This document shows, in pieces, positions 2,950-60,682 of a DNA stretch of 64,000 nucleotides. Below the pieces are notes generated by a model, which worked only from the letters and a program-made list of their open reading frames with translations, was not told the DNA's origin and searched no databases. Position 1 is the first letter of the stretch; the number at the start of each line of letters is the position of its first letter. Origin of the DNA: Cohaesibacter marisflavi (GTDB lineage Bacteria; Pseudomonadota; Alphaproteobacteria; Rhizobiales; Cohaesibacteraceae); NCBI RefSeq assembly GCF_900115225.1, contig NZ_FOVR01000008.1, positions 124,001-188,000 of the forward strand, written 5' to 3'. Made by a program: the position numbers and the translations under genes.

Positions 2950-4776
2950 TTATTCCACAGTTACGGATTTTGCAAGGTTGCGTGGCTGGTCCACGTCAGT
3001 ACCCATGAAATTGGCAGTGTAGTAAGCCAGCATCTGCACAGGCAGAGCGAAGACAATCGGTGCGATGACGTCTGGGACGGTGGGCATGACGATTGTGGTG
3101 CTGTCTTCCAGCGCATTCTTCTTGGCGCCCGACTCATCGGTGATGAGAATGATCCGGCCATCGCGGGCGGCGACTTCCTGCATGTTGGAAACGGTCTTGT
3201 CGTAATAGCTGTCATCGGGAGCGATGACGACGACCGGCATGGTTTCGTCAATCAGCGCGATCGGGCCGTGCTTGAGTTCCCCTGCCGCATAGCCTTCGGC
3301 GTGAATGTAGGAGATTTCCTTCAGTTTCAACGCGCCTTCCATGGCCAGCGGGAAGTTGGTTCCACGGCCCAGATAAAGCACATGCTTGACCTTGGAAAGC
3401 TCATGGGCCAGATCGGCGATGGTGTTGTCTGCCTTCAATGCCTGACGGATGAATTTGGGCAACTCGCTCAACGCTTTGACATAGGCTTGCTCTTCTCCTG
3501 CCGAAATGGTTCCACGCGCACGGCCTGCCATGATGGCAAGGGCGAGCAGAACCGAGAGCTGACAGGTGAAAGCCTTGGTGGACGCGACGCCGATTTCTGC
3601 TCCGGCAAGGGTCGGGAAAATGACATCGCTTTCGCGCGCTATGGTGCTTTCGGGCACATTGACGATGGAGGCAATATGCTGGCCTTCCTGTTTGCAATAG
3701 CGCAAGGAAGCCAGCGTATCGGCGGTTTCGCCAGACTGGGAGATAAAGAGCGCCAGCCCATTCTCCTGCATTGGCATTTCGCGGTAGCGAAATTCGGAGG
3801 CGACATCCATGTCGACCGGAATGCGGGCAAGCTTCTCAAACCAGTATTTGGCGACCACGCCTGCATAGTAAGCCGTGCCGCAAGCGCTAAGCGAGATGCG
3901 GTTAAGGCTAGCAAAATCAAACGGCAGTTTGCCCTTGAAGCGAACTGTTCCGTTGGCAAAATCCACATAATGGGCCAGCGTATGCTGAATCACTTCTGGC
4001 TGTTCATGGATTTCCTTTTCCATGAAATGCTTATAGTTGCCCTTGTCCACGATGTTCGCAGACGCAAGTGCCGTGGTGGCCTGCCGTTCGACATGCATGT
4101 TGTCTTCATTATAGAAAGTGGCCGTCCTTCTGGTCAGGACAACCCAGTCGCCTTCTTCCAGATAGGTCACTTCATCGGTGAACGGCGCAAGGGCAAAGGA
4201 ATCAGAGCCCAGATACATCTCTCCATCCCCATGGCCAACCGCCAGAGGAGAGCCTCGGCGGGCACCGATCATCAGATCTTCTTCGCCGCCAAAGATGATT
4301 GCGAGAGAAAACGCGCCTTCCAGTCGACCCAGAACGGCGGAGACGGCTTCTATGGGGCGCTTGCCAGCCTGCATTTCGTCATGAATGAGGTGCACGACAG
4401 TTTCGGTGTCTGTTTCCGTCTCGAATTTATGCCCCTTGGCTGTCAACTCTTCGCGCAACTCGCGAAAATTCTCGATGATGCCGTTATGCACGGCAGCCAC
4501 GTTGCCAGCCTGATGGGGATGCGCATTGATCTCGTTTGGAATGCCGTGGGTCGCCCAACGGGTGTGGCCGATGCCGATGGTGCCCGGCAATGGGTTTTCA
4601 CTCAGCAACTGTTCCAGATTGCGCAGTTTGCCTGCAGCGCGGCGTCTGTCGAGTTTGTTCTGGTTGATCGTGGCGACACCAGCGGAATCATAGCCGCGAT
4701 ATTCAAGCCTCTTGAGGGCATCCACCAATTGTGGCGCTACCGCTTCCTTACCAAGAATTCCGACAATTCCACACAT
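2950..4776 (-). CDS. glmS: glutamine--fructose-6-phosphate aminotransferase (isomerizing)
   Basis: Converts fructose-6-phosphate and glutamine to glucosamine-6-phosphate, the entry step of peptidoglycan and LPS amino-sugar synthesis, in the cytoplasm. The start is placed at the ATG giving MCGIVG, because Cys2 becomes the N-terminal nucleophile after Met removal; a GGAAAGAGA SD lies just upstream, and the longer frame would bury this cysteine. The protein then has 608 residues, the normal size. The glutaminase domain shows GHTRWATHG and HNGIIENF; two SIS domains follow (SACGTAYYAG, SQSGETADT, ALKLKEISYIHAEGYAAGE). The C-terminus LAKSVTVE carries the expected Lys603. It lies just downstream of glmU but behind a terminator. 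Confidence 0.97.
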   Translation of the reverse strand: MCGIVGILGKEAVAPQLVDALKRLEYRGYDSAGVATINQNKLDRRRAAGKLRNLEQLLSENPLPGTIGIGHTRWATHGIPNEINAHPHQAGNVAAVHNGIIENFRELREELTAKGHKFETETDTETVVHLIHDEMQAGKRPIEAVSAVLGRLEGAFSLAIIFGGEEDLMIGARRGSPLAVGHGDGEMYLGSDSFALAPFTDEVTYLEEGDWVVLTRRTATFYNEDNMHVERQATTALASANIVDKGNYKHFMEKEIHEQPEVIQHTLAHYVDFANGTVRFKGKLPFDFASLNRISLSACGTAYYAGVVAKYWFEKLARIPVDMDVASEFRYREMPMQENGLALFISQSGETADTLASLRYCKQEGQHIASIVNVPESTIARESDVIFPTLAGAEIGVASTKAFTCQLSVLLALAIMAGRARGTISAGEEQAYVKALSELPKFIRQALKADNTIADLAHELSKVKHVLYLGRGTNFPLAMEGALKLKEISYIHAEGYAAGELKHGPIALIDETMPVVVIAPDDSYYDKTVSNMQEVAARDGRIILITDESGAKKNALEDSTTIVMPTVPDVIAPIVFALPVQMLAYYTANFMGTDVDQPRNLAKSVTVE

Positions 4777-30014: not shown

Positions 30015-30063
30015 GTCCTTTTTGATTTTTATTGAGGGAAAATACGTAATACTTTCGGCGATG

Positions 30064-30137
30064 CACAATGAGAATTGTTTCTGGGAAAAATTTCAAGATA
30101 TTGAACTTGTTCATTTTTTTCCAAAACTCTCATTGTG
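30064..30137. repeat. long imperfect inverted repeat downstream of uvrA
   Basis: CACAATGAGA (30064-30073) is perfectly repeated inverted as TCTCATTGTG (30128-30137). Inside it GGAAAAA (30084-30090) pairs with TTTTTCC (30116-30122). The element spans 74 bases. It could be a 3'-end structure of the uvrA mRNA, an unusual terminator (T-rich DNA follows) or a remnant of a small mobile repeat. Confidence 0.5.
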
Positions 30138-30149
30138 TTTTAGCATGCA

Positions 30150-30163
30150 TTGATCTAAATCAC
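30150..30163. promoter_or_regulatory. FNR/FixK-like box
   Basis: TTGAT-CTAA-ATCAC matches nine of ten conserved positions of the FNR/FixK consensus TTGAT-N4-ATCAA. No annotated gene starts nearby on either strand, so its target is unknown; it could drive an unannotated transcript in the gap before the DUF1127 gene. Confidence 0.35.
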
Positions 30164-30586
30164 TGATGTGATCGCTATTTGTGTTGCGTTGCAAAATTCG
30201 CAATAATGAATATTGCAATTTTCTGACTTTCCTTCTCAAGATTTTTGCTTTTCACAAGCCCCCTGCTCTTGACCAAGTAAGCATACGTCCTACTACGTAT
30301 GTTCGCGTGATTTTGAGATTCGAAACCGCATATTTCCAAGTCATTGAAGTGATGTATTAATTTCCTGAATTTCGTTCTGGCTATGCGAAATGTGCGAGGC
30401 CTTTGAAATAGCAATGACGGTTTTGCATGATCTGCAAGACAGCTATGCATATTTTTGCAGTGCAAATGTCGGGTGTCTTTTGCTATCTATTTATCAACAG
30501 CAACGAGATGTTGATTAAAAAACGAAACAGTCATCTCTTTAGAGATGCAGAGTCACTTGAAGGTTCGGCAACGTAGGATCGAAAAG
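30164..30586. other. AT-rich gap before the DUF1127 gene
   Basis: About 420 bases without a credible gene. A minus-strand frame at 30175-30465 has no SD and an unconserved composition. The DUF1127 promoter must lie at the right end. A small hairpin GCAATA/TATTGC is present near 30200. Confidence 0.4.
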
Positions 30587-30736
30587 ATGCTTGATACGGT
30601 TGTTCAGAATTATAGGCAGTGGCGCAATTTTCGTGACACGGTCGATAATCTTAATCGTCTGTCGAATAGAGAATGCGAAGTCAGCATTTCTCGTGCAGAC
30701 GTAACGCAGACCGCACGACGCGCGGTTGGTATGTAA
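30587..30736 (+). CDS. DUF1127 family mini-protein (CcaF1-like)
   Basis: A 49-residue basic protein with ATG at 30587 and AGGA eight bases upstream. YRQWRNFRDTVDNLNRLSNR followed by SISRADV matches the DUF1127 pattern (YRRWRxxRxxxxxLxxLSDREL then DIGLSRxDI). The usual DIG is replaced by EVS, which may mark divergence. In Rhodobacter the DUF1127 protein CcaF1 is an RNA-binding protein encoded directly upstream of the CcsR sRNAs and cotranscribed with them; in Agrobacterium members affect phosphate and stress responses. Here three hairpins with CCUCC loops follow within 20 bases of the stop, the same layout. Function is by analogy. Confidence 0.75.
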   Translation: MLDTVVQNYRQWRNFRDTVDNLNRLSNRECEVSISRADVTQTARRAVGM

Positions 30737-30752
30737 CAGATTTATAGGAATC

Positions 30753-30780
30753 CAGACTTTCTCCTCCTCCCGAAAGTCTG
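30753..30780 (+). ncRNA. anti-SD hairpin 1 (CcsR/cuckoo-type sRNA)
   Basis: CAGACTTTC (30753-30761) and GAAAGTCTG (30772-30780) form a perfect 9-bp stem. The 10-nt loop TCCTCCTCCC exposes CCTCCTCCC, the anti-Shine-Dalgarno motif that defines CcsR RNAs in Rhodobacter and the cuckoo/alpha-r14 family in Hyphomicrobiales. It lies 16 bases after the DUF1127 stop, so it is probably processed from the mRNA 3' end. Confidence 0.7.
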
Positions 30781-30784
30781 AGAC

Positions 30785-30815
30785 GTTTCGAAACGATTCC
30801 TCCCCGTTTTGAAAC
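30785..30815 (+). ncRNA. anti-SD hairpin 2 (CcsR/cuckoo-type sRNA)
   Basis: GTTTCGAAACG (30785-30795) and CGTTTTGAAAC (30805-30815) form an 11-bp stem with one G-T pair. The loop ATTCCTCCC again exposes CCTCC. The stem sequence is unrelated to hairpins 1 and 3, so the loop is what is conserved. Confidence 0.65.
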
Positions 30816-30823
30816 ACCCTTAG

Positions 30824-30857
30824 AAGCCCACCGGATCTCCTCCCCCGGTGGGCTTTT
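30824..30857 (+). ncRNA. anti-SD hairpin 3 and terminator (CcsR/cuckoo-type sRNA)
   Basis: AAGCCCACCGG (30824-30834) and CCGGTGGGCTT (30845-30855) form a perfect 11-bp stem with loop ATCTCCTCCC (30835-30844), then TT and a T-rich tail. It doubles as the intrinsic terminator of the DUF1127 transcript. Confidence 0.72.
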
Positions 30858-31005
30858 CTAATTTCAGGCATTAAATCCAAAGAATCGACACTCAACGGTC
30901 AGTGGCCGCAGAATGTGTTTTTTGTTATGCGTAGATGCTCTGCCAGCCAGCTATCTCCAGGCTTAGCGGCTGAGCATCATGGTGTGCTGTGGGATAAAAG
31001 AGGCT

Positions 31006-31626
31006 CTAATGTCTGGCTGGGGATTCAGCCATCCAGTCTTCCAGAGGCTTGATCTTGGGAAAGACGCCATTGTCATAGATCCAGCTATCGATCGCGTAGC
31101 GTCTGTCATTCTCGGTATTGAGTACGACGGCGGTTGCGTGAGGGTAGCGGCCATCAAGGAAGAAGCCTCGTGCGACCGGCGATTGAACCTTGTGGTATTT
31201 CAGAAAGCCATGCTGCTGGGCAAAAGTGATGAGCGATGTGGTGTTACTGGCTTCGTCTATGCAGTCCATCTGGCCGGGGACGCCGGCATTCCTCATATCC
31301 AGCCCACCCTTGTCCTTATCTGAACCGACATAGGGGCCGACACGTTTTTCAAACCAAGCGACGGCATTGCCTATGGCCTTAAGCTCCGCCTCGGGGCTTT
31401 TGCGCCCGGCGTGGAGTATTCTCTTGAGTTTTGCAAGATCGCCCTTGGTAAAGTGATAGCCATATTTCAGGCTGCAGCCGAATGCGTGGCAAACATAGAT
31501 GGTAGTTTTCGTGGGGGCGCGATTGTTCATGGCGCTGATCCAGCCGCTGGTGGAGCTGGATGTCTGGGCGTTGCATCCTGCCAACGCAATCAAAAGGGGA
31601 ACGGTTGTTATGAGTTTGAATTTCAT
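31006..31626 (-). CDS. lipoprotein with a transglutaminase-like Cys-His-Asp pattern
   Basis: A 206-residue protein that I cannot name. The start is placed at the ATG giving [18 protein letters not shown], a signal peptide ending in a lipobox (LALAGC-like, Cys18), so it is an envelope lipoprotein; the frame is open 14 codons further. The mature part has [15 protein letters not shown], then YPHATAVVL, then [12 protein letters not shown] cysteine at the start of a helix followed by His and Asp in strands is the order of the transglutaminase/cysteine-protease triad. No partner gene adjoins. It is divergent from trmFO. Enzymatic activity is inference. Confidence 0.65.
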
Positions 31627-42393: not shown

Positions 42394-43113
42394 TCAGCGG
42401 TAATGCTGCTCGCCCCTGGACACTCGTTCGATCTCCGCACGCACCAGGCGTTCTACCATCACTGGCAAATTTTGGTCGAGCCATGCCTTGAGCATCGGGC
42501 GCAGCATATCTTCGACGACATTTTCAATCGTGCGTGAGTTGTTGTTCAAGATTGTATGAGTCAAATCACCAAAGGCGCTGGTGACCTTCTGAGATGTGTC
42601 ATCGGAGACCAGAGGTGCGCCGCGTTCGACATTCGGCAGAGGTCCATCGGGCATTGAAGCGGAACTGAAGGCAGACTGAAGAGCTTCAGGAACAGCCTCT
42701 TCCAGCTTCTGATTGACGATATCCTCGATCGGAGCCGTTTCCTCCTGCTCCTTGGTCGCCTGCTCTGCATTGGCGAACATGACGTCGTCGTCTTGGGGTT
42801 CGACAAAGTCGGATTCTTGCCATTCGGATGAAAGCTCAAGAACGTCTTCTTCCTTGGGGGCTTCTTCCTCTTCCATGGCAGCCATAGCCGCGGCCATGTC
42901 GATTTCCTCTTCTTCCGGTTCCGGCTGAGGAGAAGGTTCATCAAACAGGGCGTCGAGCGCTTCCTGACTCATGGCTTCATCGGGATCTGCCTCTGGCTCT
43001 TTGGCTGGAGTTGCTTCATCTCCGATAGCAGCTTCTTCATCCGAGATAATCCTACGGATGGAAGCGAGAATCTCCTCCATGGAAGGTTCTTGAGCTGCAC
43101 TGGAATTTGACAT
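42394..43113 (-). CDS. popZ: PopZ-type polar organising protein (DUF2497)
   Basis: A cell-pole scaffold that in Caulobacter and Agrobacterium anchors the chromosome origin and polarity factors. The start is the ATG giving MSNSSAAQEPSMEEILASIR, preceded by GTGAGG; the frame extends 20 codons upstream. The 239 residues show the three PopZ parts: the short N-terminal helix EEILASIRRIISDE that binds partners, a long acidic Pro/Glu-rich disordered middle, and the C-terminal oligomerising helices (ENVVEDMLRPMLKAWLDQNL, VMVERLVRAEIERVSRG). It lies between valS and tolC. Confidence 0.9.
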   Translation of the reverse strand: MSNSSAAQEPSMEEILASIRRIISDEEAAIGDEATPAKEPEADPDEAMSQEALDALFDEPSPQPEPEEEEIDMAAAMAAMEEEEAPKEEDVLELSSEWQESDFVEPQDDDVMFANAEQATKEQEETAPIEDIVNQKLEEAVPEALQSAFSSASMPDGPLPNVERGAPLVSDDTSQKVTSAFGDLTHTILNNNSRTIENVVEDMLRPMLKAWLDQNLPVMVERLVRAEIERVSRGEQHYR

Positions 43114-60497: not shown

Positions 60498-60682
60498 CGC
60501 TTATCTGGTCCGTGCATTTGGGTCTGTTGGTCTGTTTGTTGCAGAAACTATTGGAAACACCAAATCAAGTAAAGCAATTGCTGATTAGCAACAGATAGGC
60601 GTGAAAAATCCACCTCCTTTTTCGAGAGAAAGAAGGAGAGATCGAGGCGTTTATGGCACCGTGATTTTATGAAATGAGAGCG

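Follow-up and report, generated by a model that had tools for sequence, protein, structure and literature searches.

A DUF1127-ar14 small RNA unit of Cohaesibacter marisflavi and its predicted control by an LsrB/VtlR-type regulator

Small RNAs (sRNAs) of the ar14 family, also known as cuckoo or alpha-r14, are defined by three hairpins, an anti-Shine-Dalgarno (aSD) motif left unpaired in each loop, and hypervariable stems (PMC10746234, PMC7143759). The S. meliloti member, NfeR1, represses ntrB and two transporter mRNAs via its aSD motifs, with more transporters predicted as targets; LsrB binds and activates NfeR1 at a site reading TGCA-N6-GCAT, and NfeR1 expression needs LsrB (PMC10746234). Brucella VtlR, an activator, controls mainly three DUF1127 genes and AbcR2 (PMC12595884), and Agrobacterium VtlR activates atu1667, with GCAT-N3-TG-N3-T as the published VtlR box (PMC7486931). 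The VtlR/LsrB regulons of Brucella and Agrobacterium comprise three DUF1127 genes or atu1667, AbcR, and VrsA, and Budnick et al. left open whether atu1667 acts as a small protein or an sRNA. Reports on AbcR in S. meliloti conflict: co-activation of AbcR1 and NfeR1 by LsrB is stated in PMC10746234, whereas Budnick et al. report no LsrB effect on AbcR1/2, so the presence of a box and control by the regulator need not always coincide.

DUF1127 genes followed by CcsR-like RNAs have been published as the “CIN1 locus” (PMC10253847), so this kind of arrangement is already known. In R. sphaeroides, CIN1 consists of ccaF1 and four separate RNAs (CcsR1-4) and has an RpoHI/RpoHII promoter (PMC10253847). 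The ar14 family, its association with DUF1127, and LsrB control of orphan ar14 are all already published.

The window analysed here, i.e., the whole 64,000-nucleotide stretch of Cohaesibacter marisflavi DNA, holds an ordinary ar14 sRNA behind a tiny DUF1127 gene, and the family is already known. A first-pass annotation, made from the letters of the window, had called this a CcsR/cuckoo-type locus and proposed a covariance-model search as a check. That search (an Rfam scan, repeated with alignment) placed ar14 (RF02344) at 30747-30860 on the forward strand, with 76.5 bits against a gathering cut-off of 58.8 and the full model covered (1-123). The locus has the three hairpins, unpaired aSD loops and variable stems of the published definition, with loop 2 in a shorter form (TTCCTCCC), and a short DUF1127 gene lies directly upstream on the same strand, so the cuckoo/alpha-r14 identification stands. 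The cited order of DUF1127 gene and CcsR-like RNA is likewise that of the CIN1 locus, with the RNA directly behind the gene in one unit (PMC10253847). The Rhodobacter part of the label falls away: where R. sphaeroides has four homologous RNAs in a row and an RpoHI/RpoHII promoter (PMC10253847), one three-hairpin RNA of the NfeR1 type follows the DUF1127 gene here, and the promoter region carries an LsrB-type box. NfeR1 and the present locus share three hairpins, aSD loops, variable stems and several copies per genome; unlike NfeR1, the locus has a DUF1127 gene between promoter and sRNA, and its loop 2 differs from the CCTCCTCCC of NfeR1-type alpha-r14. The reading we consider probable is a CIN1-type unit in which LsrB/VtlR activates one DUF1127-ar14 transcript whose CCUCC loops silence mRNAs at their Shine-Dalgarno sites.

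Copy number, which had been left for discovery, is three ar14 units per genome: a whole-genome search returned three matches at E <= 0.001, all above the cut-off, and each sits directly 3' of a DUF1127 frame. Among 41 genomes (this one and 40 relatives), a match at E <= 0.001 is present in 29 and one above the cut-off in 21; in an order-wide sample the corresponding figures are 116 and 65 of 297, under stricter filters by which weak matches are lost. Genomes G007 and G015 belong to the window's genus, and the closest DUF1127 genes in named relatives are those of Cohaesibacter (nine loci, one gammaproteobacterial). A set of 18 Cohaesibacter genomes contains 37 ar14 matches above the cut-off, a count that leaves out six weak genus matches and two loci of the family outside the genus. 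The six weak, ar14-like matches (L063-L068) score 31-35 bits, below the cut-off. They have no LsrB-type box (4 to 6 mismatches in 15 at best), and no DUF1127 frame stands in front of them where our script detected a loop cluster. Some are close behind ordinary genes, e.g., genes that by eye seem to encode a sugar-binding and an L,D-transpeptidase-like protein.

Upstream of the DUF1127 gene, the 26 bases at 30424-30449 on the forward strand (TGCATGATCTGCAAGACAGCTATGCA) form a putative LsrB/VtlR-type operator and match TGCA-N7-CA-N2-ACAG-N3-TGCA exactly. On the reverse strand this box reads GCAT-AGC-TG-TCT-T, which is the published VtlR box, and it has TGCA-N6-GCA, as does the LsrB site of S. 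meliloti NfeR1 (PMC10746234). A putative -10 element, CTATCT, lies 33 bases after the box at 30483-30488 (forward strand); its placement follows from the spacing of this hexamer in the genus, and it would put the transcription start near 30495. If so, the box spans -71 to -46, similar to the NfeR1 site at -72 to -57 (PMC10746234). A sigma-70 consensus scan of 30015-31010 gave two sites (1.7 expected), neither of them at 30483. Within the same region, about 400 bases (30015-30423), AT-rich by eye and without a convincing gene, separate the box from an upstream gene that we take to be uvrA-like.

The 5.3-Mb window genome contains four exact sites for TGCA-N7-CA-N2-ACAG-N3-TGCA, one upstream of each of the three ar14 units and the fourth upstream of an AbcR-like sRNA next to the LsrB gene; the reversed pattern has no site. 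For the 15-base core of the box there are two exact sites, both before DUF1127-ar14. The genome's sole one-mismatch box (L109, 1499 onward; G000:C28:208905) has no ar14 or DUF1127 match. As in an LsrB/VtlR regulon, the published operator lies upstream of the unit and the genome encodes an LsrB ortholog; judging from these features, an LsrB/VtlR-type regulator is most likely the on-switch of the DUF1127-ar14 unit.

The box recurs across the genus. All 37 ar14 copies that score above the cut-off have its 15-base core upstream, with no more than 3 mismatches in 15, and at 34 of the 37 loci the box is followed, 32 or 33 bases on, by a -10-like hexamer. The 18 genus genomes hold 76 sites with at most one mismatch, against two for the reversed pattern; many of the 76 are not at ar14. 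Thirty of them are exact, with 22 before ar14, six before an AbcR-like RNA beside LsrB (these six RNAs are near-identical by eye) and two elsewhere, both in genome G014; some of the 46 one-mismatch sites were followed. One stretch of G014 (L228, 1528 onward), outside the ar14 matches, combines an exact LsrB-type box with CCTCCC and CTCCC motifs behind it (read by eye) and is possibly another LsrB-driven sRNA. The box was first spotted from a comparison of two loci and refined on loci that were counted afterwards; the extra-generic matrix test and the held-out set alone escape this circularity, and both are drawn from related, high-scoring loci.

Outside the genus, 40 ar14 loci from 24 genomes in five families were hand-picked among the best-scoring matches listed. 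A weight matrix built from Cohaesibacter only, with a threshold of 2.4 (the 99% level of mononucleotide shuffles), found the box upstream of 18 of the 40, with one more locus tying at the printed precision. It exceeded the threshold downstream in 5/40, four of these (L138, L170, L171, L172) being in stretches with a second ar14 unit. The published VtlR box precedes only 6/40 and, being too restrictive for loci beyond Cohaesibacter, was rejected as the sole criterion. A looser pattern, drawn up once the matrix result was known and then fixed for new loci, matches upstream in 22/40 and on the other strand in 1/40, with a dinucleotide-shuffle mean of 0.005/40. Of 20 loci held out from other families, 14 have the fixed pattern (other strand, 2/20), and it occurs five times in 53,940 control strand-bases. 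At ten further loci, eight of them below the cut-off, it lies within about 550 bases upstream in four. Loci without it upstream accordingly number 18/40, 6/20 (held-out) and 6/10 (lower-scoring). Without an intervening DUF1127 gene the pattern stands at about -66 to -105, and with one it is mostly at about -283 to -325; box and ar14 without DUF1127 between them occur at a number of loci in other families too.

The LysR protein of the window genome matches 9HH1 with 409 bits over its whole length, and 9HH1 is A. tumefaciens LsrB (PMC11975290). LsrB-like proteins (E <= 1e-60) are present in 22/22 ar14-bearing genomes and in 9/12 without an ar14 match, so LsrB is more widespread than ar14. The gene order trxB-lsrB-abcR is common to the Brucella/Agrobacterium systems and this genome, where the gene that precedes the LysR gene and the AbcR-like sRNA is presumably trxB-like (named by eye). 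The AbcR-like sRNA under the fourth box scores 33.2 bits to RF02345, below the 40-bit cut-off. As in the Brucella VtlR regulon, three DUF1127 genes and one AbcR-like sRNA carry the box. In this genome each of these DUF1127 genes has ar14 behind it.

In A. tumefaciens LsrB, C144/C273 and C236/C244 are proposed as a redox switch; C144 and C273 are common to S. meliloti and B. abortus LsrB, and changing C273 impaired function whereas changing C144 did not (PMC11975290). Unlike Agrobacterium LsrB, the Cohaesibacter regulator has no C144/C273 pair: in the alignment it has Val at both positions, and its single Cys is at 190 in 7/7 genus sequences. Among 21 aligned LsrB proteins (20 from other genera plus the window genome's own), both residues are found in three, all in family f24 (four sampled), and ten have no cysteine at all. 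The sampled LsrB/VtlR proteins outside f24 are without the full pair (L102 4487-5377, L226-L233, L237-L256). Its lack in Cohaesibacter makes oxidative control by that switch doubtful: peroxide control of the locus via C144/C273 is unlikely, and LsrB would likely answer to another input here.

The promoter and regulator also bear on a different account of the locus, namely an RpoH stress-sigma unit as in Rhodobacter, induced by heat or oxidative stress, with a DUF1127 protein that guides RNase E maturation of the RNA. Although the gene order matches that of ccaF1-CcsR, which has an RpoHI/RpoHII promoter (PMC10253847), this account is unlikely, because the promoter can be explained by a conserved LsrB-type box at a fixed distance from the -10 element, and Cohaesibacter LsrB has Val/Val at the 144/273 positions and one Cys.

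The RNA itself is consistent with a CIN1-type silencing unit. All three hairpins are on the forward strand: hairpin 1 at 30753-30780 (9 bp, loop TCCTCCTCCC at 30762-30771), hairpin 2 at 30785-30815 (11 bp, loop ATTCCTCCC at 30796-30804) and hairpin 3 at 30820-30861 (10 + 5 bp, loop ATCTCCTCCC at 30835-30844). The first two are drawn from the fold and covarying pairs, the third from the fold and the TTTTCT after its stem. The loops are exactly as the first-pass annotation had quoted them, with positions right to the base, and every one contains CCTCC; that of hairpin 2 is without the full CCUCCUCCC. In 2000 dinucleotide-preserving shuffles of 30737-30865, CCTCC-loop hairpins with stems of at least 7 were absent from 1947, single in 53 and double in none. 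The native sequence folds at -48.9 kcal/mol, compared with an average of -25.6 (sd 3.4) for 200 shuffles. In an alignment of 30 of the 37 above-cut-off genus copies, each of the three loops retains TCCTCCC in 30/30 (by eye). Eleven of the 31 pairs of the consensus fold show at least one both-sided, pair-keeping change; four pairs are broken or gapped, each in 2 to 5 of the 30 sequences. The suggested pattern of a conserved loop on a free stem is therefore borne out, and the loss of the loops in close relatives, which had been named as grounds for doubt, was looked for and not seen.

Hairpin 3 probably doubles as a terminator. The T tail described behind it exists and is short (TTTTCT); the terminator scan, whose rule accepts loops of 3-8 bases only, did not call it. 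Other CCTCC-loop hairpins in the window (at 43074, at 60613, and at 3671 on the other strand) were not joined to the locus; the one at 43074 falls inside a reading frame of the other strand. CCTCCTCCC alone was tried as a marker and rejected for lack of specificity, as it has 36 sites and the reversed pattern has 30.

The DUF1127 gene occupies 30587-30736 on the forward strand and encodes a small protein of 49 residues, as annotated earlier; 16 bases separate its stop codon from the first stem, in keeping with the “within 17 bases” given there. Its Pfam DUF1127 score, from a scan that used the frame starting at 30545, is 22.4 bits and so narrowly misses the cut-off of 23.3; the match spans only positions 1-25 of the 37 in the profile. 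A whole-genome search scored it 22.7, or 23.3 together with neighbours in frame. An in-frame ATG also lies further upstream, at 30545; the orthologous frames of G011 and G014 lack an equivalent. Proteins of the window type have the DLGI motif replaced: they read RECEVSI or near it at the place where the rest have RDLNDLGI or a similar sequence. This replacement agrees with the weak, partial Pfam match. Comparison with eight orthologs gave pS of 0.15-0.52 and pN of 0-0.037; by these values the protein is under purifying selection, and the gene is a conserved paralog, not a product of decay.

A DUF1127 gene precedes 35 of the 37 genus copies of ar14. This, the TTTTCT that ends hairpin 3, and the position of the RNA directly behind a gene would suit a mainly cis-acting role for the hairpins, in which they jointly form a terminator and stabilise the 3' end of the DUF1127 mRNA. 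However, a terminator has no need of CCTCC in three loops, yet every aligned copy keeps it. Two genus copies (L057 in G012 and L059 in G008) are moreover orphans that resemble NfeR1, with a box about 100 bases upstream (3/15 mismatches) and no DUF1127 gene between; some copies in other families also have box and ar14 alone. The genus orphans indicate that the RNA can stand alone, and a mainly cis-acting role is improbable. It is more improbable still that the RNA is a sponge titrating an RNA-binding protein or another RNA via its CCUCC loops: three like seeds per RNA, three copies per genome and the want of a known NfeR1 chaperone would fit, but it is by these motifs that NfeR1 silences its targets ntrB and two transporter mRNAs (PMC10746234).

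Under the favoured reading of a CIN1-type silencing unit, LsrB/VtlR would bind 30424-30449 and activate the promoter with its predicted -10 element at 30483. A single transcript would start near 30495, include the DUF1127 frame and end at hairpin 3. The ar14 part (30747-30860) may act within this transcript or be freed by RNase E, as in Rhodobacter. The three CCUCC loops would then serve as interchangeable seeds, pairing with mRNA Shine-Dalgarno sequences and blocking translation. The AbcR-like sRNA, which also has the box in front, would share some of these targets.

We found no paper that names DUF1127-ar14 units as LsrB/VtlR targets; our search extended neither to the original cuckoo paper nor to Eisfeld 2021 (on LysR-controlled sRNAs of Agrobacterium). 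Tentatively, LsrB-box DUF1127-ar14 units and AbcR may form an old core of the LsrB/VtlR regulon across Hyphomicrobiales, its control being older than, or independent of, the Agrobacterium LsrB thiol switch, and the DUF1127 targets of VtlR may be double products (a protein and a silencing RNA). The proposal carries somewhat less weight given that published work already allows for atu1667 acting as an RNA.

The locus itself is one more ar14 unit; what it adds is testable wiring, i.e., a predicted promoter control. The regulator data point away from a simple redox trigger. In this marine genus, three protein-plus-sRNA units and one AbcR-like sRNA appear to answer to a single LysR regulator, and such wiring would join research on VtlR and DUF1127 to research on LsrB and NfeR1 (ar14).
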